A stretch of 64,000 bases of DNA from Branchiostoma floridae (lineage: Eukaryota > Chordata > Leptocardii > Amphioxiformes > Branchiostomatidae). Below the pieces are notes generated by a model, which saw only the letters and a list, made by a program, of their open reading frames with translations, was not told the DNA's origin and did no database searches. The position numbers were made by a program, and so were the translations under genes. The stretch spans positions 17,865,425 through 17,929,424 of the forward strand of contig NC_049988.1 of NCBI RefSeq assembly GCF_000003815.2, read 5' to 3'. Positions 3,253 through 59,068 of the stretch are shown one piece after another; the stretch's first letter is position 1, and each line of letters starts with the position of its first letter.

Positions 3253-3881
3253 CTTTAGGAAATCATAAACATAGATTTTTTAAATGTTTTTGTTTGTGGT
3301 GAGGTTAAAATTACAAAACGGTGTAATCATAGCCTCTTTGACCAACAGTATAAAGAAGATACACCTGGATTGCAAAGTTCGAAGGTGTAGTTTTTTTTTT
3401 ACAAATGTTAAAAGTCCATTGATCTTGGTCTTCGAGCTTATTACATCCATATCGCCAGGTGCAAATGCTAATGTTGTTGTTTTAAAGGTATAGTTTTCAT
3501 ATATATATCATAAGTTAGAAATGTCAGCATCTCATTTTAATGATCTTATATCTTGCAGTAAAATATATTCTGTATCTGTATCCCAAAATGAAGAATGGAA
3601 ATATGATAGAAATTGATTTAGGTGCAAAAAGTGGGATACAATTGTAAAAATTCAACTAACCTATATCCAAATGATTAAGTTGATATATGTTTTCGTAGTT
3701 ACAATGTGTGCAGTTTAGAACTTAAATAAACGTAATCTTTTATTATTGAAGAATTCAGAATATTTTATCAAATTGATATTCTTCAAAATGTACCATCACC
3801 AACATTTCAGTGCAGTTTTAAATAGTAGTGTTTGTCTAAAAAGCTTGAATAAAGACAGATAACATGAAAATATACGCGCAC
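3253..3881 (-). other. Intron between mucin exon and EGF exon
   Basis: AT-rich sequence between the GTGCGC donor below 3882 and the CCTAAAG acceptor above 3252. I see no further exon. Short open frames here lack any recognisable motif. Confidence 0.6.
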
Positions 3882-30671: not shown

Positions 30672-30677
30672 TTTATT
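30672..30677 (-). terminator. Polyadenylation signal of paralogue A
   Basis: AATAAA about 100 bases beyond the TAA stop on the minus strand. Confidence 0.75.
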
Positions 30678-30777
30678 CATTCCTCGTTTCACGGACCAAT
30701 TTTCTATGCAGCCTCCCAGTATGTCGTGCCTGACTATACGGTAGGAGGTGCTGTGTTCCCCGCGCGTCCCCGGGTGT

Positions 30778-33700
30778 TTAGGCGGTGGTGCCGGCGCCGA
30801 AGGTCTCCGTGAAGTGGTTGGAGACGGAGTTGATGATGGTGTTGGCGTCATCGATGTAGGGCTGGGCAACAGCAGTCAGCGAGTCTGTGCAATGGGCAGT
30901 TCAACACATGGTGAGTGGGAGGATTAGGGGAACACAGTAAAAGCTAGGGGCACAACCCGCCGTACGTCTACGTGGTGTCTACGTGCCAAAACGTGGGCAA
31001 TCGCACAGAGATTGTACGTTGTAAGCACGTACAACTCACTTACCACTTGCGCAACGAACGATGCACGCAACCGGCGCAACCGTGCGAGAGACGTGCTCCC
31101 TCCCTGCCCCTGCCAGTCCTTCCCCACGTTTTCGGAAAAACGTGGCGGACGTGACCTCCCCAAAAACGTACGGACAAAAAGCACGTACGGCGGGTTGTGC
31201 CCCTAGCTTAACAGTCAGCGAGCCTAGGGAAATAGCAAGCAGTTGTGTGGGGGATATAACGCCATTGATGCCCTACTATGTATTGCCGCAGCCGACCGAT
31301 GATGATGATGTATTGTACCTCTTCGGTGTAAAGCGGATGTACAATGTATGTATTTACCGTAAACAAATCCGTATGGATGTAAAAAAAAATTCTGTAGTGT
31401 GGTCAGGATGCTATCGTTACTTGATTAATGAAATTATATTTTCCCTGTAGAGAAAAACATATAAATTGTCTGATGTGTTTTTTTTTGTTTTTCTTTCTTC
31501 TTCTTCTTACGCCTGTAGCCAATCAGATCCTATGTTAGATATTAGCTTTGTTTTTTTTTTTAAACAAAAGCATCTTTTATAAGAACATTTTACTCGCACA
31601 CAATACAGGGCGAGTCCAATGGTATAATATTGTGTGACAAAAGGCTACATTCTGCATTTTCGCGAAAATCTTGTCTTACTAAATTTAGTTATCAATTCGT
31701 TTTATGAATACGCTGAAGAATAAATTGATGAGATGATTTTTTTCTTCGATGGCCTGGAATGACTGGTTCATATTTGTCATTACAATTGAAATGAAATTAC
31801 AAAGATGAAGGATGAAACTTACTGATGGTGTCGTTGACGGTGGTGCTGAGGTTGTTGAGGAGGGTTGTGCCGTGGTCGACCACCTGGGCACCGACAGCGG
31901 TGGCGGCATCAACGAGCTACAGGCAAAACAGGGTAATACACGTTGTAATCGCTAGGTGCGCTTGTGAGCAAAAGCAGTCGTTGTCGGATACAGAAAACTA
32001 CATATCAACACAGCCTTGAGCTTATACATTTACAGCCATACAGTTATAACAGCAATAAAAAAAGACGCTGGAGGATTAGAATTCGGCGGGAGACATGGGC
32101 GATAGGCCTCGGAACTTTTGTTGACGAAAGGGAACGAACCACCTGCTAAGATATGGGAACCCGACTCGCTCCGGAAACGCTTCCGTAGGGCCTAGGATCC
32201 CCAACGCAAACTATGCTCCTGACTAATTCTTTTACGGTCTGTGTGTTTTGTTGTCTTTCTTATCATATTTTTCGTTTCCGAAAGCTACCCGGCCGGGCCC
32301 CGGGTTGGACATTGGGACCTAGGCCTTAGGCTAACGTCACATTTCCAAAACAGGGCCCGGTCGGGCAGCTTCCGAGAGCGAAATATGATAAGAAAGGCAA
32401 CGCAACACACAGAACGTAAAAGGCCACAATTTCGAAATGTGACGTATGCCTTAGGGATGGTCAGCAAGTACGCCGAATCGCTGGCCTGTACGCTAGGGTC
32501 GACTGTTGCTCAGGGTTGAGCTGTTTCAATTCGTTGATTCTGCGTTGATTTGGAGTAGCCGACCCTTGAAAGCCATGGACTTATGAACGACTTACCATGG
32601 AACACTCACAGTAAATCCAATGGTCTGAAAATGGAGTTACTCAGGGAGGACTGAAGATGGACTTACTCCTTAATTGGATCAACTTTGGTTTATAGTCCAT
32701 CGAAACTAACACCAACAGCCCGCAGATATTGCAAAATAGGGTGGACTTACTGTGGGAGTAACTCCCCCTCTGGCACAAGTAAGTCCACATTCTATCCTCG
32801 TTTATGTCCCAGGTTTGTAAGTGAGTCAAAATGCCTGAGTAAACCGCGCCATATTCGAACAGCGATCATGGCATGGATGCATTGACATTCTTATAGAGGA
32901 AATCCGAAAGGTGGTGCTTTCTGAATTCTATCCCCGTATAAAAGTACGACTGACCTGGTTGAAGGCCACGGAAGCCTGGTCGATGACGGGCTGGAAGATG
33001 GTGGACACACCGGCAGCAAGGTCGTCGAAGAAGCCACGGGACTGAAAGGAAACGAACAAAAAACAAAATAAACAAAAGTCGTTCATATGTGAAGGAAGAA
33101 GTATGCCCTAAAGCGCTAGTCCCAACAGTATTATTTCTGAAGTGCGATATAATAGATTTAAGCTGCTGATAGATACTGACAGTAATACATCATATCGATG
33201 ACTTAAATCATTACTGTAAAAGTGGTACAGAAAAGTCTCACCATCCTGATCTTTGTTGCAGCGATAGCCTGCTTGGCCTTGAGGCGGTTGCTAAGCAGAA
33301 GACCTGTAAGAAATGTAAAGAAATGAATAAATAACAATCACACGAAATGTTTGGACTACGTCTGGGTTTCACCGATTGTCGGATGGTTTATTTTTTAAGG
33401 TTGCCTAGAAAGAAAAAAAAAGAGCGTATTGTTTGTGTGGCACGCATTTAAGAATAATTTAAACTTTTGCAAGCGAAATGACAGCAAAGCAGGCTCTCAA
33501 TAGCAAAGTCGTGTCATTGCTCCAAAACAGAAGTCAATACTGCAAGTACAAAATTTGCGTTCCTCCATACCCTTTGAAATATGTATTCATTGCTTCAGGC
33601 GAAACGATATCGACATTGGCATCATTCGTTTGGATCAAAATCTTGCTTGCTATCAGCAAAACAAGTTAGGCTGTCAGGAGTGAACGAAAACATCTTAGGG

Positions 33701-34574
33701 AAACTCACGCCTAGTGGTGGCGATAGCCTGAGCAGGGTCTGTAGTCCCGGTCCCGAACAGAGAGTCGATGGTGCCGGTGAGAGCGGTCTGGACATTCTGG
33801 ATGGCCTGGGTGGTGTGCTCCAGCAGGTCCATGACACCATCGTGCAGGATACTGCCGATCTCGGTCTGGAACTCCTGGCGCTTCTTCTTGCCGCTAAGCA
33901 GGCCGGTCAGAGAATCTCCCAGATTTTGAACCGCTTCTCCTACCAGCTGCTGGGCGGTCTGGCCGAGGACGGGCACGTAGGTGTCCAACAGTTCTGGATA
34001 AAGACGATAGGCGTAATTATGATTGTTCACTTCTGTACCAAAAATACAGAGACAACATCACCAGGACCATTCTTCTTTTATGTACCAACCGTGGCAAGGA
34101 TTGCCACGCCGGCGTTGACTTGACAAGTCGTACAAGACGCTGTCCACGGCTTTGAAACCACGATACTAACATATGCATCATCCCCGGGGTGGAAGGATGC
34201 ATACTACGAAAACACAATAGTTCTTCTGAGGTGTCTGTCTCTAGGTATACTTTCTTTTCCTGTCCACCCCTCTCTTCCTCTCTTAGGGCGATTAATACCC
34301 TCCCCACGATTCTATACAAAAAAACTTTCCACTGGTGTTGTGTTTTTTATGTTAACTTCACAGCCAGATCCAAATTAAAGAAAGAGTGGCGTTTGCTTAA
34401 ACCCTTTCCTGATGTTCAAATGATAAATAACCTGAACAAGTCACCTTGTGCGGCGGTCTGGGCGGTGGAGAGGATGCCGTCCAGGGCGGCAGTGGTGGCG
34501 GCGGCCAGATCGTCCAGAAGACTGGCCTGGGTGCCTCCGAGGCACAGCAGAGCGATCACGATAAACGCCTTCAT
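30778..34574 (-). CDS. Paralogue A: secreted cysteine-free helical protein, 254 aa, six coding exons
   Basis: Function not recognised. Coding exons on the minus strand: 34574-34445, 33993-33709, 33303-33242, 33041-32955, 31916-31823, 30884-30778, all with GT-AG junctions and compatible phases, 255 codons including TAA. Residues 1-18 are a signal peptide (MKAFIVIALLCLGGTQA, cut before SLLDD), so the protein is secreted. The mature chain has no cysteine, is rich in Ala, Thr, Leu and Gln, and looks like amphipathic helix throughout (for example TYVPVLGQTAQQLVGEAV). A basic cluster GKKKRQ lies near residue 70. N-x-S/T sequons occur in exon 6 (NLS, NDT). The exon at 33242-33303 is eight codons shorter than in B and C. 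A MITE sits in the last intron. Exchangeable lipid binding or a peptide precursor are possible but unproven roles. Confidence 0.9.
30941..31208. mobile_element. Harbinger-like MITE, copy 1, in intron 6 of paralogue A
   Basis: Terminal inverted repeats AGCTAGGGGCACAACCCGCC (continuing GTACGT) at both ends, nearly perfect over ~27 bp, flanked by TAA (30938-30940 and 31209-31211). A three-base TWA duplication is characteristic of PIF/Harbinger. The 268 bp body is non-coding and has a relative at 50562-50893 in opposite orientation. Confidence 0.82.
32231..32420. repeat. Fold-back inverted repeat (68 bp arms) in an intron of paralogue A
   Basis: The left arm (32231-32299: tttacggtctgtgtg ... ccggccgggccc) is complementary to the right arm (32353-32420: gggcccggtcgggc ... 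cacagaacgtaaa) with a ~53 bp spacer. A nested pair (taggctaacgtcacatttcc / cgaaatgtgacgtatgcctta) lies just inside and beyond. The phrase cccgggttggaaatgtg recurs at 36280 and 42380, so a dispersed family is involved. Confidence 0.75.
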
Positions 34575-34624
34575 GACGATCTGAAAAGAAGGGGTGATCA
34601 TGCTTTAGACAGATGATTTGTACA

Positions 34625-34880
34625 GTATTAGTGGCGTTGGTGTGGCGCAACTGGTATGCGGTTTGGCATGGAATCGAAAGGTCCCAAGTTTGATACCCGC
34701 CGTGTCCCGACGATGTGCCCTCGGAAAATACACTTTACACGACTTTCCGTGGCGGTGGAGTGACGCCCACCGAAACTCTTCGGCTAGTCTGTCTAATTGT
34801 GTGCCAAAACACATTACGGATTTGGTGCGTCAATGTGCCAACATCTGTACAGTAACTTATACCAAGAACCGTTAATCTTT
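34625..34880 (+). repeat. tRNA-derived SINE in intron 1 of paralogue A
   Basis: The A-box region gtggcgcaactggtatgcgg and B-box region aagtttgatacccgcc are spaced as in a tRNA gene. They are followed by a unique body (tttacacgactttccgtggc ... aacatctgtac) and a poly-T-containing tail. The orthologous site in paralogue B (40418-40660) holds the same element. It lies between the promoter and the first coding exon. Confidence 0.8.
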
Positions 34881-35292
34881 TTTTAGATTAATGTAAAGTA
34901 TTTACAGGTTCATGGTACGAAGGAAATTCCCCTTGCTCGTTTCGACAAAGTACGCTAACCAATGGACCACGACTTAACGTCCTGTCCTAAGTACTGAAAC
35001 TTTGATCCTGAAGCAGTGTCGCTAACATATGGACAGTTAATGTGATAGGGCCGGTAAATAGTGGTATTTCTACGTTGCTGTAAACGTAGTTAGTTTTTGA
35101 TACTCGCCGAATAATTGAGAATCCTACCGTTTGATAGATACGCTCTATTAACTACATTTAACGTTGCCGTCTCAACAAGTAGAACTCAGCGTCTATTTAG
35201 ATATGGAAAGACAAAGGAAAACATAAAAAAACGTAATACATACTGTTTCAACAATGTAGTTGAGCAAGAACACCAAGACACGTAACTCTCAC

Positions 35293-35315
35293 CGTTTGAT
35301 GTACGAGTGGATGGG
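35293..35315 (-). other. Non-coding first exon of paralogue A (approximate 5' end)
   Basis: Downstream of the TATA box, a short untranslated exon ends at an AACG|GTGAGAG donor. The coding exon begins after acceptor TTCTTTTCAG at 34580. The same layout exists in B and C. The 5' end is placed about 25-30 bases from the TATA box and is an estimate. Confidence 0.65.
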
Positions 35316-35336
35316 ACAACGTTGAGCGTCTGGCGG

Positions 35337-35460
35337 TTATATAGAACTCCACGGCCATGAAGCAGCTGTGACCTTGAGCGGATGTCACACGACCTTGGGG
35401 CAGGTAAACTTTCCGTATCCGCCCCTCCTATACGCGGCAGTCAAACCTCCCGTATCCGTA
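35337..35460 (-). promoter_or_regulatory. Promoter of paralogue A (TATA box and conserved upstream block)
   Basis: TATATAA at 35343-35337 on the minus strand. Upstream lie CAGCTG, then TCAAGGTCA (35377-35369), a half site of the type bound by NR5A/ERR nuclear receptors, then GTGTGACATC, then two CGGATAC motifs (35421-35415 and 35458-35452). The order of these blocks is shared with paralogues B and C with losses. Binding is inferred from motif identity only. Confidence 0.7.
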
Positions 35461-35469
35461 AGGTGACGA

Positions 35470-36250
35470 TGGTATAAATATCTCTTTGTCGTGTGCCGAC
35501 CTTGTGAGGTCTCGTTCAATATTGCAAATATGTGTTGTTGCTATTTTCAAAGCCTCTTACTGTTACAGGAAGTACCATGACATGCGCATCAATGATGTTA
35601 TAAGATCTTTTACTGAAAAAAGATGAAAAATTCCAACTGAGACATAAATAAGTACGTTCGTCTGAAATTACTTGAACTTTACATTCGGCATTTTTTGGAA
35701 GTCGGATGAGTACTTTGCCCTTCGTAATACTTTTAGTAGTCCATTTGATCAAACAGTATACATAGCCTTTGCATAGTAGCCATGGATTTTAAATTTTTAT
35801 GTATGGTTTAAGACTGGAGATAAACGACACACTGCTGATTACCTCAATTTAATGATCGTCTTTGAGAACTTTGAGTGTAGTTCTTTTGCGTATTTTTGGT
35901 GCAATTTCTGAACATTTGGAGGTGTCTAAGACAGTTAAGTCTAAACCTAAACAATTAAGTCTCGACTTGTAGATCTGGCTGGCCAGGCACGTTTGCAGCT
36001 TTTTATTTCATTCCTGTTTCTGTCAATTTCAAAATGGGTTATACATATTTAGACCACTGCTCCAGCCATGGAGTTGAACACACATACCACTACCAGTGGA
36101 CTAACCTCTAGTGTAGTGATTTGTGTGGCCCAGTGGAGATGGGCACCGCCATATGCACACTTGGTGCGGAAATAGCTTTGCGGAGAGGACAAAAGACAGT
36201 TGGGATCTATAAAACGACTGGATACTAGGCTAACTGAGCTATAAATTTTT
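35470..36250. other. Spacer between paralogues A and B, no gene seen
   Basis: No exon supported. The sequence from 35500 to 35760 is similar to 41320-41540 upstream of B (shared phrases such as gttgctatttt, caaagcctcttact and catgacatgcgca), showing that the duplication unit extends at least 0.4 kb upstream of the promoter. Confidence 0.6.
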
Positions 36251-36264
36251 TTTTTTTCGTTCCC

Positions 36265-36640
36265 GCAAACAGCCGAGCCCCGGGTTGGAAATGTGGTTCT
36301 AGTATAATTATGAGGCCAATCGAGATAATGGCACGCGCTCAATATGGCCCTGCAAGCTGTAAAATCATAGCAATTAGGGAAGTAATAATGTGTATCTGTT
36401 TAAATGTATTAGTGTATTCGTATTGGCACCGTTTGTCGCCATTCCTCGACACTGTGACCTGCTTGTGTCAGAGGTCATGCACATAAGTTTGCAACCGGGC
36501 GGGTCATGTGACCACTGGACTGGTGCATGTTTTGTGTGGTTGAAATCTCACGAGAGCATACGAGATTTGTGTCTTTTCAAAATGGTTCTGGAGATTTTGT
36601 AGGTCAGGATGGGCAGCCAAATTTGAATCGACATAAATCA
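36265..36640 (+). repeat. 370 bp repeat, left member of an inverted pair flanking paralogue B
   Basis: Matches the reverse complement of 42040-42412 along its length: gccccgggttggaaatgtg, then aatgtgtatctgtttaaatg, then cattcctcgacactgtgacc, then ggagattttgtaggtcagga. No coding potential is evident. Confidence 0.8.
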
Positions 36641-37350
36641 ATATTACCATGCTTGGCGAAGCCTTATTCTCAGTATCAAATATTCATTACGAGGAATAGT
36701 CTACCAGGTCGTGGATTACTTCAAGAAATGGTTGCCTCCATGCGAGTTGATTACACACAGAGAGTTGACCGAGATGGACTACCAAGTAAGGTAGTCCCAT
36801 ATATAGTCTTTTGAGCCTGAAGGGGCAGTATGTTATTACCCACTGTGTCTTGAGCAGATCCATGTCTTGGAAGCCACCTCCAATTGACTGTTGCTATGAG
36901 TATCACTGGAACCACATTTCTTCTCCATAAGGTCATATGCTATTGATTTGATTATATGGATGATATCCACGCGCGTATTAAATTTCGATCGTGTCCAAAA
37001 GTTTTGAACCATACTGTAACTCATGATGATGATGATGTTAGTCGTACAAAGTGGCCGAAAGATGAGAAATTATCTGCCGTAGATCTAAACCTTTTCGCAC
37101 CATGTTTTTTTGGTTTCCAGACAGCTACGCGAAACAAGCTCGTCTCACAGAGAGCGATGACTGGTTGACCCAATAGGAGAAACGTTAAGCCCTGGTCGTA
37201 CTTTCCATTGCCTTTTCCAAAGATACGGCGGCAATGACAGCATTGTACACCTTAACAATAGACAAGGGGATATACAAACATACACATAAACATGTCAATA
37301 GATAAGAAAAGAAAGAGGCATCATCAGGTCCGAGGTACCCTTACATTTAC

Positions 37351-37356
37351 TTTATT
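37351..37356 (-). terminator. Polyadenylation signal of paralogue B
   Basis: AATAAA about 110 bases after the stop. The surrounding 3' untranslated sequence is nearly identical to that of paralogue C. Confidence 0.78.
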
Positions 37357-37466
37357 TCCGATGACGGCGAAAGAAATGTCCTTGACCTACAAAAACACCA
37401 TTGAGTTTGCGGCTAAGCAGCAGTGTCTTAGATGTAATTCAGTCGGTAGGAACATTCTCTGCGTGT

Positions 37467-40361
37467 TTAGGCGGTGGTGTCGGCGCCGAAGGTCTCGCTG
37501 AAGTGGTTGGAGACAGAGTCGATGATGGTGTTGGCGTCATCGATGTAGGGCTGGGTGACACCAGTCAGGGAGTCTGTGTTTTAAAAAGAGAGGGAAAAGA
37601 ATGCATTAGCTTTATAATATCAGCTAAATAATGGATGAAATAGGCTAGTATTCTGTTAGCGTTGCCCACAACGTCAAAGGAGGCTAAGAGATACATGAGG
37701 GTAGACAAGTACTGCTGAAAGAAAATTGATGGCTGGTCTCAATTTGATAGAAAAAGACTAGAAAATCGCAGTCTGGTAACATATCTGTACAAGTAACACT
37801 TAAATGTACAGTAGTATAGGACAATCAAAATTACAAACTCAATAGAAATGATTATAATCCATAACCGTCATTAAACTGTAGGCAGCGGTACATAGATGTA
37901 CATGGAGGTAAACTTACCGATAGTCTGGCTGACGGTGGTGCTGACGTTGTCGAGGAAAGCTGTGCCGTGGTCGATCACCTGGGCACCGACAGCGGTGGCG
38001 GCATCAACGAGCTACAAAGAAAACACATCGATGGTTACTGAAATGTTGATGAATATCTACTTCTTTGTATAGGTATGAATTAAATTCCTCGTTGTACATC
38101 AAACGCTTTACCCAAATCAAAACCATCATAAACTGAACTTCTTAAAACTACCGACATGTAGTTATTTACTAGATAGACACTAGACTGTCCAGCAACAAAA
38201 GACGTCTCGCGTTTACCTCCGTTAGCAAACAAATTACTAGTGTTGGTGCTCCTGCGAGTTTTACACATCATTTTTAAAACATGTACTTCGGGAATTGCGA
38301 TCAACCGTCTGCAGGAATAAATTGTTCATAAGAGGTGGCATCTCTCTCCAGGGTGTTCTATTTTCGAGACAGAACTCTACTTTCGACACAGGACTCGCGG
38401 TTCAACATGGCACGTGGTTCCACAATGATAATTTTGGTCGTCTTTCAATTTTCCTGGCCGGAAAGACAACACCTTGTCAAGAAGCGTACGTAAAAACATT
38501 GCCGTGGAGAATAAAGAGGCAATTTTCGACACAGAACTCCACAATGATAATTTTTTTCGTCTTTCAATTTTCCTAGAAAGGTAAGAAAGACCACGTTAAG
38601 AAGCATTGCTGTAGATTGAAGAGGAGATCTATGTTCTGGCGACTGACCTGGTTGAAAGCCAGGGAAGCCTGGTCGATGACGGGCTGGAAGATGGTGGACA
38701 CACCGGCAGCAAGGTCGTCGAAGAAGCCACGGGACTGAAAAGATGAATCAAAACATAAGATAAAGACCTGAAAGTCATTCTAGTTTTGTTAGACCTCTTT
38801 TTTACCGCTTGATGAAAGGTAGCAGATGCGTTATGGACCTCTGACCGTTCATTACACTTATCCAGATGCTTTCTGTATTTTGTAAAGATCTAATGCGAAC
38901 TTTATGTGTATTTCTGTTCTAAAACGTCTAACTACACTGGAATATTGTATCATCTTGTGTGATTCTTGCTCCAGAAGTACGGTACGTCTCATGCAATCAT
39001 TGGTCTGCCTATCCGTGGTGACACAAGCGCAGGGAACTCACCATCTTCTTGGCAACAACAGCCTTCATCTTCTGGCCGGTCATGGCGATCTTGCTCTTGG
39101 CCTTCAGGTTGTTCTTCTTCAGAAGACCTGAAAACAAAATTTCAAGAGCAGGCTACCGAAAGATGCTGGAACTATCAAGACAAACGCCGAATGTGACGTT
39201 AGATTCCGTACATATATGTATGCAAGAATTAGTAAAATGGAAATGATGAAGGGAAAGACGCATGAACATCAGATCAACTAGCTCGTAAAGATGATAAACT
39301 GTTTTCCGCAGGCTCTAACAAAAAGGAATTCTTACAGGTAAAACACTATTAGTTTAGACAGGTTGGTAGAGACAAGCACGATGTATGAATTTGACAAGTT
39401 TGACAGACACTCACGCTTAGTGGTGGTGATAGCCTGAGCCGGGTCGGTGGTGGTGGTCCCGAACAGGGAGTCGATAGTGCCGGTGAGAGCGTCCTGGACG
39501 TTCTGGATGGCCTGGGTGGTGTGCTCCAGAAGACCCTGGACGCCATCGTGGATGATCTGGCCGATCTCGGTCTGGAACTCCTGGCGCTTCCTCTTGCCGC
39601 TGACGAGACCGGTCAGAGAATCTCCCAGACTTTGAACCGCTTCTCCCACCAGCTGTTGGGCGGTCTGGCCGAGGACGGGCACGTAGGTGTCCAACAGTTC
39701 TGAAGAAAGACGCTAGGCGTAATTAGACGTTAGGCGTATTATCTGAAACGCTATTCTCTGCATTTTAAGGGCAAAATTTGCTGCACAAGTTTAATGGAAT
39801 TTCTATTAAAATACACAATGCTTTCGGCGTAGGTCTTTGAGGGCGACTCTCCCCACATATTTTCATCATGTCCGACACCAGCGGTGCGAGGCGTCGCAAT
39901 GGAGGTCTGGGGAAATTTTGACATCTAGATCCTCTGAAAAGCCATTTTCTTGCCAGACTAAGCTAAATTCAATGACAATTCTATTAGAGAAAAATACTTT
40001 TAAGGTCGACGGCCCCCCTCCCAACATATTTTCACTATTGCTAGCGCTGGAGGCGCCAGCCGTCGCAAGGGGGGTCTGGGAAATCTCAAATCTGGACCCT
40101 TTCAAGCGCAATTTCCTGCATTTTGAGGGGCAAATTTTGCTGTTAAATTAGCAAATCCAATTCAAAGAACCAGTGAAGTTTGCTTTGACCCTTGTCTGAT
40201 GTTCTAATGATAAATAACCTGAACAAGTCACCTTGTGCGGCGGTTTGGGCGGTGGTGAGGATGCCGTCCAGGGCGGCAGTGGTGGCGGCGGCCAGATCGT
40301 CCAGGAGACCCGCCTGGGCACCTCCGAGGCACAGCAGAGCGATCACGATAAACGCCTTCAT
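37467..40361 (-). CDS. Paralogue B: secreted cysteine-free helical protein, 262 aa, six coding exons
   Basis: Function not recognised. Coding exons: 40361-40232, 39699-39415, 39127-39042, 38734-38648, 38011-37918, 37573-37467, in the same phases as A and C. The signal peptide MKAFIVIALLCLGGAQA is cut before GLLDD. The mature chain lacks cysteine. It carries SGKRKRQEF about 70 residues in and TTKR at the exon 3-4 junction; both are dibasic or tetrabasic and could be proprotein convertase sites. The third coding exon encodes a strongly basic helix (NNLKAKSKIAM ... VAKKM), longer than in A. One N-x-S sequon (NVS) is in exon 6. The C-terminus is ETFGADTTA. The same locus layout as A (SINE in intron 1, TATA promoter) shows direct duplication. 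Confidence 0.9.
39765..40145. repeat. Diverged ~180 bp tandem repeat in an intron of paralogue B
   Basis: Two-plus units share tgcattttaagggcaaa/tgcattttgaggggcaaa, cccacatattttca, gcgtcgcaatggaggtctgg and a following aaatttt. Related units in the opposite orientation occur at 42840-43340. Confidence 0.7.
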
Positions 40362-40417
40362 GATCTGAAAGGCAGAGGTGATGATATGTTAGACAGATGC
40401 TTTGTACAGTATTGGTG

Positions 40418-40660
40418 GCTTTGGTGTGGCGCAACTTGTAGAGCACTTGGCTCGGAATCAAAAGGTCCCGAGTTCGATACCCACCATGCCCTGACATTGT
40501 TCCCTTGGGAAAGACACTTTACACGACTTTCCCTGGCGGTGGAATGACGCCCACCAAGTCTCTTCGTCTTTGTGCCAAAAGCATATTACGGGTTTGGTGC
40601 CTCAATGTGCCAACATCTGCACATTGACATCAACCAAGAACCGTTATTTTTTTTTTCAAA
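40418..40660 (+). repeat. tRNA-derived SINE in intron 1 of paralogue B
   Basis: A-box region gtggcgcaacttgtagagca and B-box region gagttcgataccc, body tttacacgactttccctggc, tail ending aagaaccgttattttttttt. Same position and orientation as in paralogue A. Confidence 0.83.
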
Positions 40661-40800
40661 TTGTACGGGGGAAATTCCCATTGCTTTTTTTCGACGAAGT
40701 ACGATGACCAATGACCAAGACTTTACGCCCTGTCTTTAAGTACTGAAACTTTGGTCCTGAGGCAGTGTCGCTAACCACATTAACGGCCTCATCACATTAA

Positions 40801-40842
40801 CGGCCTCATCACATTAACCATATTGTTAATGTGATGAGGCCG
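40801..40842. repeat. Perfect 18 bp inverted repeat with 6-base loop
   Basis: The arm cggcctcatcacattaac (40801-40818) is exactly complementary to 40825-40842. Part of the left arm is also tandemly duplicated just upstream (about 40777-40800). Paralogue A has only a single diverged arm near 35036-35055. Confidence 0.85.
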
Positions 40843-41088
40843 GCGAATAGTGATAACTTTGAGTCAATGTCGTAAACGTTTGTTATACTCGCCAAGTGAT
40901 TATACCCCCCACAAATTGAATGAATCCCAGGTTTAGATAGAAACACTCTATTAACTACAATCAACTTTCGCAAAAAAAGACTCAGTTTTACTACGTTTAC
41001 TTATAAAAACAAAGGAAAGAATTCAAACGCTATACTTACTGTTTTACCAGGGTAGTTGAGCAAGAACACCAAGACAAGTAACTCTCAC

Positions 41089-41112
41089 CGTTAGATGTAC
41101 GAGTGGATGGGA
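41089..41112 (-). other. Non-coding first exon of paralogue B (approximate 5' end)
   Basis: Ends at an AACG|GTGAGAG donor identical to that of A; the exon text (ccatccactcgtacatc) is nearly identical in A and B. The 5' end is estimated from the TATA box. Confidence 0.65.
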
Positions 41113-41132
41113 CGACGTAAAGCGTCTGGCGG

Positions 41133-41250
41133 TTATATAGAACTCCACGGACATGACGCAGCTGTGATATGGAGCGGATGTCACACGACCTTGGGCAAAC
41201 TTTCCGTACCCACCCCTCCTATACGCGGCAGTCAAACCTCCCGTATCCGT
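41133..41250 (-). promoter_or_regulatory. Promoter of paralogue B
   Basis: TATATAA at 41139-41133. The upstream block resembles A (CAGCTG, GTGTGACATCC, one CGGATAC at 41249-41243). However, the nuclear-receptor-type half site is altered (tgatatgga in place of tgaccttga) and the proximal CGGATAC has become gggtacg. If those sites matter, B should be regulated differently. Confidence 0.68.
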
Positions 41251-41639
41251 AAAAAGGCGACGATTTCATAGATAGGGTGATTGCTTTGTCGTATCACCTG
41301 ATATCCGTTGTAAGGTCTCGTTCGATATTTCAAATATGTGTTGTACGTTGCTATTTTTCAAAGCCTCTTACTATTACATGAAGTAACATGACATGCGCAA
41401 CGATGTTCTAAGAAATTTTACTGAAAGGCAATCAACGAAAGTTTGAGATGAATAATTCCGGAAACACAAGTGCCTTCGTTTTTCTGAAATCGTCTTACCT
41501 GAACTTCACATGTGGCAAAGTAAATCGACGGAAGTCGGAGGAAAACTTTGTCTTTGGAATTAACCTGGTTTCTGTCCCAGCCATAAAGTCGCCTCTGGCA
41601 AATATTTCATAAAGTACTCCACGAGATGGTAGACTATTT

Positions 41640-41895
41640 ATTGTATCTGTATATGTATCTATATAGCCGGTATAACAGCCATTCGGCGTAACACACCAGC
41701 TTCGCAGGCTCGCGGCGCGGCAGCAGCTGGTTATATTACACTGAACGACCAGTCACACCTAACTTTTGCACATCTACCTGCAAGCGTTCTTTAAAGCTAT
41801 CCAGAGAAGGTGCCCCTACTGTATGTGCTTGGTGATAACAAATTCCACTCTACGATAGTTCTGGGAAAATACGAATTTTTAAACACATCAACCAT
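41640..41895 (-). mobile_element. Non-LTR retrotransposon 3' fragment
   Basis: The minus strand reads NSYFPRTIVEWNLLSPST, then after a one-base frameshift VGAPSLDSFKERLQVDVQK. This is the conserved end of the reverse transcriptase ORF in CR1/jockey-like elements (N-S-F-x-P-R-T-I-x-E-W-N ... S-L-x-x-F-K). It ends in a tgtatct-rich tail. Broken and 5'-truncated. A sister fragment is at 48240-48425. Confidence 0.75.
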
Positions 41896-42039
41896 AGGTT
41901 AGTAACTGATAACTGGTATTTGAAGTCATGGCTGTTTCTTGTTCTTTTTTGAGCTGGAAATTTTGTTAATGGATTTTTGTTATGGATATTTAATACTGGG
42001 CATAATGATTTGCCTTTAAGTTATTAATATTATTGATTT

Positions 42040-42412
42040 TTGTAGACTCAAAAGTTGGCATCCCATCCTGACCTACAAAATCTCCAGGGCCATTTTGAAA
42101 CAACACAAGTCTCGTATGCTCTCGTGAGATTTCTACCGCATGATCACATGACCCGACCGAGTTTGTCGAGCTTTGTGCATGACCTCTGTCACGAGCAGGT
42201 CACAGTGTCGAGGAATGGCGGGAAACGGTGCCAATACAAATACACTGATACATTTAAACAGATACACATTACTAGACTTACTAAATTGCTAGGATGCTAC
42301 AGCTTGCAGGACCGCAACGCAATTGCATTGAGCGATTACCATTTGATACTATCTTGATTGTTGGCCTTATGCTGGGGTCACATTTCCAACCCGGGGCCCG
42401 GCCGGGCTGTCA
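42040..42412 (-). repeat. 370 bp repeat, right member of the inverted pair flanking paralogue B
   Basis: Reverse complement of 36265-36640 with moderate divergence. It ends next to ccaacccggggcccggccgg, shared with the fold-back element at 32231-32420. Confidence 0.8.
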
Positions 42413-42539
42413 CAAGTTTCAAAGCAATGTCAAAAGATGAAAAAAAGTTTGTCATCAGCACGTACAAGCTGTACTACATATCTCTAATGTTGTGTACATG
42501 TCCATAGACACTTGTGGGTTCGAATGACCGAGTAGCTTA

Positions 42540-43340
42540 CTCCCCAAGCAGAGGTTGAAGGCCACGAATGCGCAGCGTAGCTGCGCGGGGGGAGAGCACG
42601 AGAGGGGGGTTTCCCCCCCTCTCTTTGGGGGGGTTTGGGGGGCCTCCCCCGAGAACTTTTTAAAATAAAGAGGCTCTCTGGTGCATTTTAGAGCCATTTC
42701 TGTGCAAAAATAACCAACAAATCAACACTGACTTTTAGGGCTGAACAAATATAATAAACGAAAGAACACTGATTTTTATAGCAATCTCACATTCAACAAT
42801 CATATTTTTGGCATGGGGGAACGGCCATCGAAACATGTCTTGAGCCGGGGGGAGGGCCATTGAAAAAAAAATGCCTATTAAAACGGGGCCTTAAAAATAC
42901 AAGCAAAATGTGCCCCTAAAACGCAGGAAATGAAGTTTCAGATGGTCAAGATTTCAATTTTTCTCTGGACGTGCCTGGCGACGGCTTGCGCCTCCGGCGC
43001 CCACGACGCTCTGGCGCTCGTCGCCATCAAAAATCTTTTCCCCTGACAGAAATGTCATTACATTTAGCATAGTCTACCAGCAAAGTTTATCCCTCAAAGT
43101 GCAGAAAATCCTGTTTCAGAGGGTTCAAATTTCAACATTTTTCTCCAGATCTACCTTGCGACGGCTCGTGCGCTCAAAGTTGTGAAAATACGTTGGGGGC
43201 GTCGTCGCCCTCAATAATATAAGCTAAAAACCCTACTAGAAAGGCTATTAAACTTAGCTTAGTCTGCCAGCAAATTTGTCCATCAAAAGTTAGGAAAGAT
43301 CGTTTCAGATAGTCAAGATTTCAAAATTTTTCCGGGAGAG
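42540..43340. repeat. Repeat-rich block: G/C-run element and tandem units
   Basis: 42560-42660 holds gcgcagcgtagctgcgcggg with long G and C runs. 42840-43340 holds about three diverged units with ctaccagcaaagtttatccc/ctgccagcaaatttgtccat and gcgacggctcgtgcg, inverted relative to 39765-40145. No gene. Confidence 0.65.
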
Positions 43341-43559
43341 CATGCCACCGGACCCCCTAGGATTACGTCAATATAGTTCACCCTCCCCATAAGAAATTTG
43401 CTGCAGCCGCCTCTGTCGTGTAATTCCATGTTCGCACGAAGTTTACGAAGCCTAAAATTGGTATCAATATCAATCCTGTGTGCATCGGTTCTTTGTAAAC
43501 GGAATGGTTCACGGACGGCAACGGGATGAAACATTATTTACGATGTTTACTTTCGTGAC

Positions 43560-44820
43560 GGCGGGCTCTCTGCTGCGTGCATATATGACGCAATCATGCA
43601 TATGATGGCGAGAAAATTTTTCGGCAAGTTTGTTGGTTGGCCGAAATAACTCCCGTTTTGGAATGATTACAGCAGTATTGCAGCGGTTTTCGTCACGATA
43701 TCACTAAAATGTACCCAAGTCTCTTCCAAGTAGAACATTAATTTAGTTTCTTTTGTGTAAATATCGTACATGTGTAGTGGAAAAGATCGCCGTTTTTTTT
43801 TTTACCTGACCCATTTTGCATCAGCCCTCCCCCCGGTAAATATCGTCAAGTCCCTTAGCGGAGACATATCGTAAGTTTGACACATTTTTACTCCTGACAT
43901 TTACCGTCACAGTATGAATGAATGAATGTTTAACATGTATTGTATCCTGCGTCGCTCAGTCCACATGGGCTAATAGGGCATCAAAATAGCAAATATAATA
44001 ACAATATTAGAGTCAGATGGAACATAAGCGAGGTCCGAAGGAGGGCGGGAGTATTGCCAACGTCCTGGTTACGAAACATTCTGGCTATGCCCGCAAAGAC
44101 CGACACAATGAGGAAGTAAAAGCGGGAGGAGTGCGCCTTGGTATTGTTGGTTAGCGGCTTGGTATTGTCGCCGCTTCGCTGAAACTTTCGCTGATTTTCT
44201 GGATTTATTTGTGGAATTTCTTTTTTTTTTGTGGTCCAGCCGAATTTTTTTTGGGGTCCAGCCAAAGGGGGGGCGCGCGCCGGGTGCGCCCCCCCTAAAT
44301 CCGCGCATGGTTAGCTGACAGTAAAAGGCGGCATATAAAAAATGGCAAGATTTTCCCCCCATCAACCTCTGCATGCTTGAGGAGTTGAGCTCGAATATAC
44401 GTAGTTAGGCTGGCGGACACAAGATTAAAGGCCTTTGATTCGATTCCTAACTCCACCCTGGTCTAAAATGTCTGACGTCAGTGTGTGTGTGTGTGTGTGT
44501 GTTGGGGGGGGGGGGCGGAAGATGCAGATCTCCGCCTTGTATTAATTCCCTAGGCACAGTGGATATTAATCAACTGATTCTACGGGCTCACATAGTCCAT
44601 CATGTCCGAAGATGACTGTCAGAGTGTACTCAAAACGCTTAAGGGATTTTTCCTCATAAGACGTCCTTTCACATAAGTACAATATGACCTGGTCTAGTCC
44701 TCGGATAATCCTAAATCGGGACTATACAAACATACACAATGCCATAAACACGTCAGCCTAGCCCTCACTAGACATAGGTGATGTAGGAAAACAAAGAGGC
44801 ATTATCAGATCCGAGTTACT
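43560..44820. other. Spacer between paralogues B and C; repeats only
   Basis: A (GAAT)n-tipped segment at 43915-43935 and a terminus-like string near 44265-44312 (gggtgcgccccccctaaatccgcgc) suggest old transposon remnants. A TG microsatellite followed by a G run lies at 44480-44515. No exon supported. Confidence 0.5.
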
Positions 44821-44825
44821 TTATT
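44820..44825 (-). terminator. Polyadenylation signal of paralogue C
   Basis: AATAAA about 115 bases after the stop, in a 3' untranslated region almost identical to that of B (shared tgtccttgacctacaaaaac on the plus strand). Confidence 0.78.
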
Positions 44826-44940
44826 TCGGATAACGGCGAAAGAAATGTCCTTGACCTACAAAAACACCATTGAGTTTGCGGCTAAGCAGTGTCTTAGATG
44901 TACTTCAGTCGGTAGGAACCTTCTCTACGAGCCCTCGTGT

Positions 44941-47900
44941 TTAGGCGGTGGTGTCGGCGCCGAAGGTCTCGCTGAAGTGGTTGGTGACGGAGTCGATGAT
45001 GGTGTTGGCGTCATCGATGTAGGGCTGGGCAACACTAGTCAGGGAGTCTGTATTTTTATAAAAATGGGGAAAAGAATGACAATATGCGCTAAATGATCAT
45101 TAAAATTAACTGACCATGGTGTTCTGCTCAGCGTTGTCCACAACGTCAAAGAAGACTAAGGGATAAGTGAGGCTTGACATTATCCATACAGGTACTGCTG
45201 AAAGAAAACTGACGATTGGTCTCAATTTGATACAATGAAGACAAGAAAATCGCAGAGTCTGGTAATATATCTGTACCAGTACAATTATGAATGTACGCTG
45301 ATATAGGATAATCAAAATTACAAACTCAAAAGAGATGCTTACAATCCATAACCGTCAATACATGTAGCTAAACTTACTGATGGTGTCGTTGACGGTGGTG
45401 CTGAGGTTGTTGATGAGGGTTGTGCCATGTTCGACCACCTGGGAGCCCACAGCGGTGGCGGCATCAACGAGCTACAAAGAAAACACACCGATGGTTACTG
45501 AAATGTTGAGATAAGCTAGTATGTTAGGTTTTCAAAAATGGCAAAAATTCCCAAAATACACAATTATCAAGTGATGTACACCACATGTGTAAATAGAGCC
45601 CTGTGGCCACATACCGTACGCAACGTCATACCAAAGCAAATTTCAGATTGGCATAAGAGCCCAAACTAATTATTATGTCTAATCTGAAAATGGTAAAAAT
45701 CCCAAAAATCAACAATTTAAGTAATCTGTGCCTAAAGAGAAAATGAAGTACTGTTGGCACATGTCCTAAACACCTTCATGCCAAATTTCACGTAATTTGG
45801 TTTTAATACAAGAGCATAGGAGCAAAAAATATACTTTTTTAGTTAAAAATGGCTAAAAATCTCCGAATAGCTAATTTTTAAAGTGATCGATGAAGAAAGT
45901 GGTGATATGTTCACCTGCTTATATGTCCAATGCACCTATGTTCCGAATTTCAGGTCATTAGGTTGTAATACAAGGGCATATGAGCCAAAAACATACATTT
46001 TTTGTCAAAGATGACCGAAAAAGAAGCATATTCGTCAAGTATCGCCCTGTAAATTGAAGAGCTAATGTCTATTGTCTGGCGGCTGACCTGGTTGAAAGCA
46101 AGGGCGGCCTGGTCGACGACGGGCTGGAAGATGGTGGACACACCGGCAGCAAGGTCATCGAAGAAGCCACGGGACTGAAAAGATTAATTAAAACATGAAA
46201 TAAAGACATGAAAGCACATGCTACATAGATCTCTGACCGTTTGCAAAACTTACGGTTTTATCCAGTGGATTGGGTAACTTTTGTATTTTGTAAATATCTA
46301 ATGCAAATTTTATGTGCATTTCTGTTCTAAAACATCTCACTACAAACTATACACTGAAAGATTGTATCATCTTGCGTGATTCTTGGTCCAGAAGTACGAT
46401 ACTTCTTGTGCAATCATTGGTCTGTCCATCCGTAGTGACACAAGCGTGGGGAACTCACCATCTTCTTGGCAGCAACAGCCTTCATCTTCTGGCCGGCCAT
46501 GGCGATCTTGCTCTTGGCCTTCAGGTTGTTCTTCTTCAGAAGAACTGAAAACAAAATTTCAAGAGCAGGTTACCAAAATATACTAAAAGTATCAAGAAAA
46601 AACAGTCTAGCAAACGTGTTCAGAGATACATGTACACGAGACTAAGTAAAAGGTCGAAAATGTCATTCAAATGACATGGGGAAAGAGGTAAGAACATCCG
46701 AGCAACTAGACGAGAGACATCAGCAACGTCGCTGACATAAAAAGACATTCTTACAGGTTATAAAGTGCAAGTCTAGTTAGAATGGTGGAGAAAAGCACGA
46801 AGTTTGAAGAGTTTGACAGTAACATAAACCACTCACGCTTAGTGGTGGCGATAGCCTGAGCAGGGTCGACAGTGGAGGTCCCGAACAGGGAGTTGATGGT
46901 CCCGGTCAGAGCGGTCTGGACGTTGTTGATGGCGTTGGTAGCGTGCTCCAGAAGACCCTGGATGCCATTGTGAAGAATCTCTCCAATCTCGGTCTGGAAC
47001 TCCTGGCGCTTCCTCTTACCGCTGACGAGACCGGTCAGAGAATCTCCCAGACTTTGAACCGCTTCTCCCACCAGCTGCTGGGCGGCCTGGCCGAGGACGG
47101 GGACGTAGGTGTCCACAAGTTCTGAAAATGTGCATTTTTAAAAGCAGGTAGATGTGGTCCCATAACCTTTTTGAAGCCCGAGGAGCAATGGATGGTGTTG
47201 AGGGAACACAATTGGAAGTTGGATCCTATCCATGTCCTTCCACAGCGTTTTACCTCCCAGGTAATTCATGTACCCATTATTTTTACTTAGAAGAGCTTTG
47301 ATTGTCTAGTAAATTGTCTTGCCCATAGACAAATCAAAGCAGGGAACTATACCTTTGGCGCCCGCTAGGCCAATGTAGGCTAGGCAATCGGTCATTTGAA
47401 ACTACGGCCCAAAATCTATTTCTAATTCAATGTCAAAGTATCTTACTTCATCGAAAATGATGTACAACATCCCTGAATTGTTCAGTTGCTATTTTCTTTT
47501 GCCATCATTACATTTACACTCTTAAAAAATGAGCTTCCACGCGTGTTTAGTATTTTTGACCACAACTAGATGCAAACTAACCAACTTGGTGGGGAAAATA
47601 GGACGTGTCATTTGATGACCACGTCTCATCCTACTACACAGGGACATCCAACGGCGAACCCGCCTGTCTGGATGTACCCTGCTTTCTCAATCGTCACTCT
47701 TTGTTCCTGTGGGCATGCCCCCCAAACCAGCTGTCAGCCAATCAGAGAATAGGCCTTTCAGTTTAAAAAAGGGGTCTCGTAAGGGTGAGCTCATCAATAT
47801 TTATAAGAAGGGCGGTCATGAACTAAAGGTGACGGTTGAGAAAGCAGGGTACATCCAGACAGGCGGTTTCGCCGTTGGCTGTCCCTGCGTAGGATGATGG

Positions 47901-48077
47901 ACCACGTATGTACAGCCTGGTAAACTACTGAAACAAAAAGTAGTCACCTTGTGCGGCGGTTTGGGCGGTGGAGAGGATGCCGTCCAGGGCGGCAGTGGTG
48001 GCGGCGGCCAGATCGTCCAGGAGACCCGCCTGGGCACCTCCGAGGCACAGCAGAGCGATCACGATAAACGCCTTCAT
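44941..48077 (-). CDS. Paralogue C: secreted cysteine-free helical protein, 262 aa, six coding exons
   Basis: Function not recognised. Coding exons: 48077-47948, 47121-46837, 46544-46459, 46174-46088, 45471-45378, 45047-44941. Lengths and phases equal those of B (130, 285, 86, 87, 94, 107 bases). Signal peptide MKAFIVIALLCLGGAQA then GLLDD. No mature cysteines. SGKRKRQEF is kept, but the junction dibasic of B is lost (TTKL instead of TTKR), so a processing site there would not be general. Sequons NLS and NDT in exon 6 agree with A. The C-terminus ETFGADTTA and 3' untranslated region agree with B. The coding start has a different acceptor (GTTTTGTAG, 14 bases upstream) and no SINE in intron 1. 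Confidence 0.9.
45535..46030. repeat. ~155 bp tandem repeat in intron 5 of paralogue C
   Basis: Units begin aaaatggcaaaaattcccaa (45536), aaaatggtaaaaatcccaaa (about 45687) and aaaatggctaaaaatctccg (about 45846), each followed by a gtgat/tgtac segment and an aatttcaggt-like end. This expands the intron relative to A and B. Confidence 0.8.
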
Positions 48078-48239
48078 GACTATAGAATAGTCTACAAAAC
48101 AACAATGTGAACATCCGTAAATAACTTCATCAGGTTGGCAATGATTCAAATAGTAAGGTTCTTTTGGCACATACATGGGCTATAAGTAGCCGCAAGAAGT
48201 AATTTCCAGTCATTCTATCCTGATGATGGTGACTGATAG

Positions 48240-48425
48240 ACATCCGTATCTGCATCTAAATTCGCAGGCACGCGGCGCGGCCGCAGTTAGTTATATTACA
48301 CCGATGGACCCGTCACACCTAGCTTTTGCACATCTATCTGCAAGTGTTCTTTAAAACTACCCAGAGAAGATGCCCCTACTGTACTTGGTAAGAACAAATT
48401 CCACTCTACGATAGTACATCGAAAC
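48240..48425 (-). mobile_element. Non-LTR retrotransposon 3' fragment in intron 1 of paralogue C
   Basis: The minus strand reads IVEWNLFLPSTVGASSLGSF then KEHLQIDVQKL in one frame, homologous to the fragment at 41640-41895. 5'-truncated; no catalytic region. Confidence 0.72.
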
Positions 48426-48652
48426 GTTGGAATTAAGTACTCATTGGTTGTGCCTAAAGAACTTTATTATATAGGATATGAACAATGTGAACATTTGTGT
48501 CATACAGAAAAGATTGAAATGAATTTGGAAACGGCAGCACTATTGGATAAACTTACTCAATGGATAAACTTAGTGATGACAATTACACGAAATATTTGAA
48601 AACAGTTAAGACTGAATGACAATACATTATGCAACGACGCAATGGTACGAGA

Positions 48653-49056
48653 TAGGGGTGGGCACCGGTACAGAAAATTCAGGCACAGGTCCGGTTCAGG
48701 TCCAGAGGATAAGGTCCAGGTCCAGGTCCAGACCTGAACCTGATTCATTATGTGAATGAATGATACTCAAAGCAGTAGCCCATTTTGAGCGCTACAAAGA
48801 AATCTGTTTTGTGGTGTATTCGACTTCCACTAGCGTTTGAAATCCTACATGGCTTATTGCCTCTGTATGATTGACTTTAAAACTTGGTAGAAATGACTAT
48901 AGACTCTACTTTACTTTGCTCTTGTTATTTTCCTCGATTGGTAAGCTTTAAAACGTGTAAATATCTGATCATATAATCTGTTCATTTTCCACCCATTTTT
49001 TTTCAGGTCCGGTTTTCTGGACCGGTCCAATTAGAAAAACTGGTACCAATCCCTTA
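48653..49056. mobile_element. 404 bp hAT-like MITE with GGTCCA tandem core
   Basis: Ends TAGGGGTGGGCACCGGTAC and, inverted, TAAGGGATTGGTACCAG, with internal aggtccaggtccaggtcc and accggtcca. TACGAG occurs immediately outside both ends (48646-48651 and 49057-49062), consistent with an imperfect 8 bp target duplication. A short (AGGTCC)n patch also lies at 11763-11780. Confidence 0.6.
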
Positions 49057-49309
49057 TACGAGTACTACAGAATTCTTCTTTTCTCTTGAATATTCAACGT
49101 AGTGTATACTTATAGATATGAGTCAGCGATATACATAGTCGAGGCATTAATTTGTGATGTTATCATATGTACATGTTTCTGTGAGTATAACTGTAACCCT
49201 TCAGACCTTGAATTACAAAATCAATTTACACTTGACGCAAAGATATGTTAAAAATAAACTTACGTGTTCACCAACTCGGTTGATCGGGATCAGGGTGTGT
49301 AACTTTCAC

Positions 49310-49330
49310 CGTGTACAGTGGATGGGCCGA
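49310..49330 (-). other. Non-coding first exon of paralogue C (approximate 5' end)
   Basis: Ends at a CACG|GTGAAAG donor. The preceding ccatccactgtac matches the A and B first exons. The 5' end is estimated from the TATA box. Confidence 0.6.
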
Positions 49331-49347
49331 CGCAGGTCGCGTTAAGG

Positions 49348-49485
49348 TTATATAGAGGTCCGCGAACAGCTGTGACCTTGCGCGGATGTCACACGACCTT
49401 CAGGACGGTGTACACTGCCGAGTATCCGTCCCGCTGATAGTGACACGCCGTATCCGATGTTTGCCGTATCACCGGTATCCGCTGC
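49348..49485 (-). promoter_or_regulatory. Promoter of paralogue C
   Basis: TATATAA at 49354-49348. Upstream are CAGCTGT overlapped with AAGGTCA (49378-49372), GTGTGACATCC, and three CGGATAC motifs (49428-49422, 49456-49450, 49481-49475) plus a partial one near 49470. Compared with A, the CGGATAC motif has multiplied. Confidence 0.68.
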
Positions 49486-58225: not shown

Positions 58226-58313
58226 ATGAGGTCAACGACCTCAGCATCACTTGTCCTAATATGGGGAGCCACCATGTTGGTTTTGTCACAGGCTCTTCCA
58301 AACGCCACTACCG
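58226..58313 (+). CDS. Signal-peptide exon of the plus-strand mucin-like gene
   Basis: ATG at 58226 (context tcatcATGa) opens 29 codons plus one base before an ACCG|GTAAGTA donor. The N-terminus MRSTTSASLVLIWGATMLVL then SQA gives a clear signal peptide with predicted cleavage after SQA, followed by LPNATT, an N-glycosylation sequon. It joins in frame to the exon beginning at 59069 after a 755 bp intron. No strong TATA box is visible; an atttatac string lies near 58153. Confidence 0.85.
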
Positions 58314-59068
58314 GTAAGTACACTGTTGGAGACTACCCTCTGTATTGTTACTCCGCATTGGTAATGATGCCTCTGGTCTGTAGTAAGCCGTTTGTCACGC
58401 AATCCCTCTTATCAGATCCCACGGCATTTGCGTTCAAAGCCATGACCCATAAAGCATTTTCCATGGGATTATACACAAGTAATCCGGAAAGGATGCTGGG
58501 GGTTGGGGGATTGGCAGGTGAACCTGCACAATGTTTACGCTAAGTTGTGTAAACCAAGTTTTTGAACAGGACACACCCAAGTCACATGCGTCAGTGCACG
58601 GCAAATAGGGCCCAATGTTAAGTCTGCACCTCGCGTAATCTGCAAATGCAAACGAAAAAATGATGACTTTGAATACTAAAATGACTAAAAAGTGTAAGAA
58701 AGGCAGTAGTTAGAGGGACAGGAACGCTAAATTCAAGCAGGTACAGGTCAGTTCTAATAATCGGACAGCAGAATCTATGGGAAGGACTATTCTAATTGTG
58801 GTCTTAGTAATAGAAATTTAATTGCAACTTGGCAAAATTTCATTGCAATTGGCAATTCGCAAAGATTTGTCTCAAAAGACAATAGAAACTTAAGTCCAAT
58901 ATTCTGATACGGTATTGCGATATGTAACAAAAAGCGTGTTTTGTCTTTTTAAACCCACTAAACTTCCATCCTGAAATTAACTGGAAAACATACAAAATCT
59001 ATCACTGTTTGAACCATTTCTATAACACAACGGGACAATATAACCCTCACATCTTTTCCACCTAACAG

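Follow-up and report, generated by a model that had tools for sequence, protein, structure and literature searches.

The 64,000-nucleotide stretch of the Branchiostoma floridae genome analysed here (the window; contig C10, 17865425-17929424) carries three neighbouring genes, A, B and C, all on the minus strand at about 30.8-34.6, 37.5-40.4 and 44.9-48.1 kb, whose products are predicted to be secreted and built of amphipathic helices. The first-pass annotation of this DNA described three minus-strand genes with an identical plan of six coding exons, encoding proteins of 254, 262 and 262 residues, and this was borne out. The models rebuilt by hand have one open frame each, intron phases 1,1,0,0,1 and canonical GT/AG ends (5 GT and 5 AG per gene), and a separate spliced aligner recovered identical exons and phases for each gene when given just the two remaining proteins. 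The coding features, in window positions, are:

30778..34574, minus: gene A coding region, 254 aa; canonical splice ends, phases 1,1,0,0,1, one open frame
34574-34445, 33993-33709, 33303-33242, 33041-32955, 31916-31823, 30884-30778, minus: gene A coding exons
37467..40361, minus: gene B coding region, 262 aa; hand model and spliced alignment
40361-40232, 39699-39415, 39127-39042, 38734-38648, 38011-37918, 37573-37467, minus: gene B coding exons
44941..48077, minus: gene C coding region, 262 aa; hand model and spliced alignment
48077-47948, 47121-46837, 46544-46459, 46174-46088, 45471-45378, 45047-44941, minus: gene C coding exons
C 46459..46544, B 39127-39042, A 33303-33242, minus: exon 4 (the third coding exon), most of a cationic linker before GFFDDL
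C 44941..46174, A 33041-30778, B 38734-37467, minus: exons 5-7, end of the linker and eight 11-residue repeats (module 3)

On the comparison of the three copies, A, B and C are real, constrained coding genes, because exon identity lies far above that of the introns and the NG86 ratio of nonsynonymous to synonymous substitution rates (dN/dS) is 0.49-0.56. The coding exons of A and B are 88-98% identical (exon 4 only 58%), with introns at 43-51%; A and C share 84-95% (exon 4 only 55%), with introns at 41-46%; and B and C share 82-99%, with introns at 41, 69, 79, 48 and 81%. Twelve of the 15 pairwise intron comparisons fall at 41-51%, including all 10 that involve A. The GC content of third codon positions is 0.78-0.80 vs 0.39-0.43 for the introns.

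The family, previously described as these three genes, proved to be larger. The searched genome (513,431,437 bases, 431 contigs) holds at least ten members, spread over three places on two contigs: the three in the window and seven on contig C5, with P1-P6 at 12.986-13.022 Mb and P7 at 14.525 Mb. Queried with the N-terminal 139 residues of A, the genome returned 15 matches at E <=0.001, of which 6 lie in the window and 9 on C5; exons 2 and 3 had been joined provisionally in that query, leaving one extra residue, which the final model corrects. The C-terminal 95 residues of A gave 26 matches at E <=1 (9 in the window, 17 on C5). Ten genes is a lower bound, since the queries came from gene A and more distant members may be absent. 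A, B, C, P2, P3 and P4 follow the six-coding-exon plan with phases 1,1,0,0,1; the models of P1, P5 and P7 carry more introns (one interrupts exon 3 in P1 and P7, and P5 gains a tiny extra exon). A, B and C form one group in the tree (support 99/99).

Nine of the ten members are complete. P6, incomplete at a run of N, was excluded from alignment A1 and from all counts over nine members, and its exon 3 is in A2. The P2 model probably runs exon 3 past its true donor, and the sole mature Cys among the nine arises there. The C-terminus of P7 was set by reading frame, since the aligner overran the stop.

The proteins are laid out as a signal-peptide-like start, module 1 (61-63 residues), a KR site, module 2 (43-55 residues), a cationic linker and module 3 (91-93 residues). 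The start ends in AQA, TQA, ANA, SQA, AHA or CSA in all nine complete members, a pattern chosen from these sequences, and represents a putative secretion signal. Cysteine is absent from the mature A, B and C chains, and the earlier description of a secreted, cysteine-free, helical protein with basic clusters is supported by the sequence. The KR site follows SG or TG and is present in 9/9. The linker carries a net charge of +7 to +12 in 9/9 (+11 for the whole linker of gene C; that of P7 is shortened by the search pattern) and ends in Arg directly before module 3, which begins GFFD or ILDQV straight after it. The linker is the least conserved part of the protein and the modules are the most conserved.

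The basic residues are distributed in an unusual way. In all nine, with an exception in P5, the three acidic modules are free or nearly free of Lys and Arg, and the basic residues are confined to the KR site and the linker. The longest three Lys/Arg-free stretches sum to 199-209 of the 237-252 mature residues (9/9), and none of 2000 shuffles per protein reached the observed sum in any of the nine. Every basic residue lies in the site or the linker in seven of the nine (hypergeometric P 2.9e-11 to 1.5e-15, a calculation that assumes module limits set in advance, whereas they were not; the shuffle test makes no such assumption). The P5 exception is one Arg, three residues behind the predicted signal peptide; in P7 the pattern set the second site too early, and the Lys/Arg-free runs of 91, 62 and 50 are unaffected.

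Module 1 matches the opening of module 3 (GLLDDLAAATTAALDGILSTAQTAAQELVD vs GFFDDLAAGVSTIFQPVVDQAALAFNQLVD in C; score 37.7, with a maximum of 22.5 in 200 column shuffles), and since the score exceeds all 200 shuffles, the start of module 3 is likely an internal duplicate of module 1. The module 3 copy starts at the Arg site and the module 1 copy at the signal-peptidase site. P5 has EPR-ILD after the signal and KSAR-ILD at module 3, so that both homologous modules begin after Arg there.

Module 3 of C can be written as eight gapless 11-mers (GFFDDLAAGVS, TIFQPVVDQAA, LAFNQLVDAAT, AVGSQVVEHGT, TLINNLSTTVN, DTINSLTSVAQ, PYIDDANTIID, SVTNHFSETFG). Period 11 is the best of 3-20 for module 3 in 9/9 (F 7.2-10.6 in eight members, 2.7 in P3). 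Period 15 is best for module 1 in 9/9 and for module 2 in 8/9 (17/18 together), and 11-mers are claimed for module 3 only, because modules 1 and 2 mostly prefer period 15. On a helical wheel at 98.18 degrees, module 3 positions fall in the order 1-5-9-2-6-10-3-7-11-4-8, with hydrophobic shares in that order of 0.23, 0.02, 0.43, 0.84, 1.00, 0.86, 0.75, 0.52, 0.04, 0.07 and 0.18, counted over 7 paralogues (P3 excluded for a two-residue gap, P5 for a different start). Positions 9-2-6-10-3-7 form a continuous hydrophobic face, position 6 is hydrophobic in 56/56 cells, and the acids lie on the polar face, concentrated at 4, 5 and 8.

Hydropathy was scanned in 19 overlapping windows of 44 columns: 15 of these peak at 95-99 degrees and the other four at 99.5-101.5 degrees; power at 98.2 degrees, compared with 102.9 degrees (the heptad coiled coil), is higher in 17 of the 19, equal in one and lower in one. 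The mean hydrophobic moment is 7.4-8.3 standard deviations above shuffles in the three proteins tested (A, C and P4). Module means are 0.37-0.50 (0.33 for the mis-set module 3 of P7), from our own calculation and not HeliQuest; they are close to the published moments of ApoA-I (0.39) and Plin3 (0.35) in Table 1 of PMC5889406 and exceed that of Plin4 (0.257). The charged fraction of the modules is 0.08-0.16; published values are 0.35 for ApoA-I and 0.15 for Plin4 (PMC5889406).

We suggest, with a probability of roughly 0.55, that the family consists of secreted amphipathic-helix proteins that coat lipid surfaces and work like exchangeable apolipoproteins. Exchangeable-apolipoprotein-type lipid binding was among the ideas of the first-pass annotation, and the 11-residue repeat favours it, as does a hydropathy period close to 96-98 degrees. 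Folding of 11-residue repeats as amphipathic helices on lipid is described for apolipoproteins, synuclein and perilipins (PMC5889406, PMC6468556). The modules would be helices whose hydrophobic face binds a lipid/water interface, on lipid particles or elsewhere. Proprotein convertases or trypsin-like proteases may cut at the KR and Arg/GFF sites, which would spare the Lys/Arg-free modules and leave them whole, and the cationic linker could be a released peptide or a binder of an acidic partner (a receptor, glycosaminoglycan or bacterial surface). Precursor processing is suggested by the absence of Lys/Arg inside the modules and their presence at the borders, and cutting at the basic sites probably occurs. 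Alternatively, the linker may bind acidic partners, with the modules kept acidic for solubility. Very-low-density lipoprotein (VLDL)-type receptors of vertebrates bind basic clusters. As a VLDL-type receptor of amphioxus has been described (PMC10339998), a receptor-binding linker is possible.

The sequences appear to encode secreted hendecad amphipathic-helix proteins with a conserved separation of basic residues from helices. The seven C5 genes, the 11-residue repeats of module 3 and the Lys/Arg confinement are additions to the first-pass annotation, whose observation is confirmed and extended and whose interpretation is partly supported. Its idea of a precursor of helical peptides is strengthened by the restriction of Lys/Arg to two places that look like cut sites. 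Neuropeptide and peptide-hormone precursors have dibasic sites flanking short peptides; a KR site (9/9) and a basic linker are present here, but the pieces, at 43-93 residues, would not be short peptides.

Several points weigh against lipid coating and the processing tied to it. The full furin site consensus includes an RRAR-type sequence, and before GFF such a full site occurs only in P1, not in most members. In class A apolipoprotein helices, Lys and Arg flank the hydrophobic face at the edge of the polar face; seven of the nine members have no Lys/Arg in their modules, so no interfacial Lys/Arg. Period 11 is not significant in module 1 of P1, P4 and P7. Repeats of 11 and 15 residues occur in right-handed coiled coils too, and the hydrophobic face could pack on protein instead of lipid. 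In Pfam, PF01442 (exchangeable apolipoproteins) gave no match for A and B at E <=5, and in a control with five sequences it matched 5/5 forward (E 9.8e-5 to 0.31) and 4/5 reversed (0.0019 to 0.13).

PF01442 was all the same the family most often matched (7/9 members at E <=5; best 9.8e-5, 22.6 bits vs a cut-off of 90). Membership was rejected on sequence grounds, given the reversed-sequence control and the scores far below the cut-off; because reversed sequences match too, the resemblance is one of pattern and no proof of descent. Across the genome, PF01442 matched 57 places at E <=1, none above the cut-off, and these are mostly helical-repeat noise, because 13 of 14 control prokaryote genomes also match. 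The best three of the 57 (L014, L015 and L016) proved to be one frame of charged repeats and two of simple tandem repeats, none of them a secreted apolipoprotein. L014 (contig C11, ~7.595 Mb), a long Lys/Glu/Ala-rich repeat frame that is not obviously secreted, holds the genome's best PF01442 match (E 1.9e-9, under the cut-off).

The first-pass statement that the proteins match no known family stands as far as Pfam, NCBIfam and the sequences of solved structures are concerned. Every Pfam match with a bit score in the tables was below its cut-off, the listing for the nine members giving 25 of 53 families and no bit scores; phage tape-measure, BAR, Snapin, phasin and similar matches were rejected on this ground. 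NCBIfam gave no match for C and five scattered families for the nine members (best E 0.016). Protein Data Bank (PDB) sequences gave 0 matches for C alone (E <=10) and 3 with a nine-member profile, which were unconvincing (best E 0.26). The idea of an antifreeze-type Ala/Thr helix was also dropped.

The rival that survives best, though we hold it unlikely, is a secreted right-handed (hendecad or pentadecad) coiled coil or helix bundle with a structural or scaffolding role and no lipid binding. Periods 11 and 15 both suit right-handed supercoils, and 11-mer positions 6, 9, 10 and 2 are readable as a, d, e and h. However, the hydrophobic arc takes in as many as 6 of 11 positions, of which 9 and 7 are hydrophobic only about half the time, the repeats contain Pro and Gly, and inter-helix salt bridges are impossible because the modules lack Lys/Arg. 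A more doubtful proposal is an epithelial surface-active protein (of foam, mucus film or slime) that would work at mucus or air/water interfaces rather than on lipoprotein. The chains are low-charge, Thr/Gln/Ala-rich and amphipathic, and A, B and C sit between two giant Thr/Ser-rich mucin-like reading frames, but neighbourhood alone is weak, and on C5 the frames of at least 130 codons, among those listed in the 40 kb and 10 kb read (N stretches unseen), have Thr+Ser of at most 0.19. We consider it very improbable that the linker, although cationic and flanked by basic sites on both sides in 9/9 paralogues, is the active peptide (antimicrobial or signalling) of a precursor with the acidic modules as pro-parts, as an antibacterial apolipoprotein A-I reported from Branchiostoma belcheri (PMC7431520, PMC9331387) might suggest, since the linker is the poorly conserved part (A exon 4 at 55-58% vs B and C).

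A bolder form of the lipid-coating proposal is that the proteins are cephalochordate lipid carriers, independent of or ancestral to the exchangeable apolipoproteins of vertebrates, made as a polyprotein cut at its Lys/Arg-only sites into three protease-proof, acidic amphipathic chains free of Lys/Arg and a cationic helix; in full we regard it as speculative and somewhat unlikely. If true, a single secreted precursor would yield both a lipid coat and a cationic peptide, with proteolysis as the switch. Keeping basic residues so strictly apart from the helices is in any case an unusual design that makes processing directly testable. The origin of vertebrate exchangeable apolipoproteins is unclear, and lamprey forms are described as already matching poorly (PMC7431520). 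A secreted multigene family of 11-mers in amphioxus would either be a relative too diverged for profiles to detect or have evolved independently, and may bear on how blood-fat carrier proteins arose.

A short non-coding first exon and TATA promoters had also been proposed for the three genes. TATATAA, a GT able to end exon 1 and a downstream AATAAA are present in each of them; exon 1 itself remains a prediction from sequence. The corresponding features are:

35337..35396, minus: gene A promoter; block AAGGTCGTGTGACATCCGC 35396-35378, TATATAA 35343-35337, exon 1 donor GT begins 35243
41133..41192, minus: gene B promoter; block 41192-41174, TATATAA 41139-41133, exon 1 donor GT begins 41039
49348..49400, minus: gene C promoter; block 49400-49382, TATATAA 49354-49348, exon 1 donor GT begins 49263
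30672..30677, minus: gene A poly(A) signal AATAAA
37351..37356, minus: gene B poly(A) signal AATAAA
44820..44825, minus: gene C poly(A) signal AATAAA

The 19-base block AAGGTCGTGTGACATCCGC is identical in A, B and C and lies 46-53 bases upstream of TATATAA, start to start; in A and C it is followed by CAAGGTCACAGCTG. The 4 kb preceding each of the seven C5 start codons contain no exact copy. The block is a candidate shared tissue element, and it contains AAGGTC, which we take to resemble a nuclear-receptor half-site.

The neighbourhood of the two gene groups includes the following frames:

Window 3796-9585, minus: 1929-codon Thr/Ser-rich mucin-like frame with inner tandem repeats of 174 and 441 bases
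Window 2-310, minus: further Thr/Ser-rich frame, running off the window
Window 58226-63999, plus: Thr/Ser-rich mucin-like frame of more than 1643 codons from 59071, running off the window
Window 58226-58543, plus: frame with a signal-peptide-like start preceding the second mucin-like frame
L012:7236-8636, minus (37236-38636 of the joined C5 stretch): 467-codon frame adjoining the C5 cluster, start region containing VFVYDLPSEFN, perhaps an exostosin-like glycosyltransferase

No description of the family was found in the open-licence literature, searched mostly with amphioxus and Branchiostoma queries, which is weak evidence of novelty, as subscription papers were mostly outside the scope. The largest gap in the novelty claim is the B. 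belcheri apolipoprotein A-I (Wang, Qu and Chen 2019), known here from its citations alone (PMC7431520, PMC9331387, PMC7579410, PMC11260610) and said to bind lipopolysaccharide and lipoteichoic acid (PMC7431520), which may or may not belong to the family. The lamprey plasma helical apolipoproteins LAL1 and LAL2, poorly similar to jawed-vertebrate ones (PMC7431520), can be likened by description alone; LAL2 genes are described as intronless (PMC7431520), unlike the six-coding-exon family here.

Insect apolipophorin III (PF07464) is also made of secreted amphipathic helices and matched four of the nine members weakly, but its best match (E 0.11) reached 13.1 bits vs a cut-off of 36.3, and 1/5 reversed sequences did equally well (E 0.1). 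Synuclein repeats are of the KTKEGV type, unlike the repeats here, which contain no Lys. Perilipins, Plin4 especially, share low-charge, Thr-rich 11-residue amphipathic repeats with the family (PMC5889406). They are cytosolic, with a PAT domain and a four-helix bundle, whereas the family has a signal-peptide-like start, and no perilipin profile is among the Pfam matches listed.

Exchangeable apolipoprotein genes lie in clusters, as the genes here do. The family differs from them in helices without Lys/Arg, in six coding exons and in an internal KR site with a cationic linker, but the two are alike in a secretion-type start, 11-residue amphipathic repeats and a similar mean moment and hydrophobic fraction.

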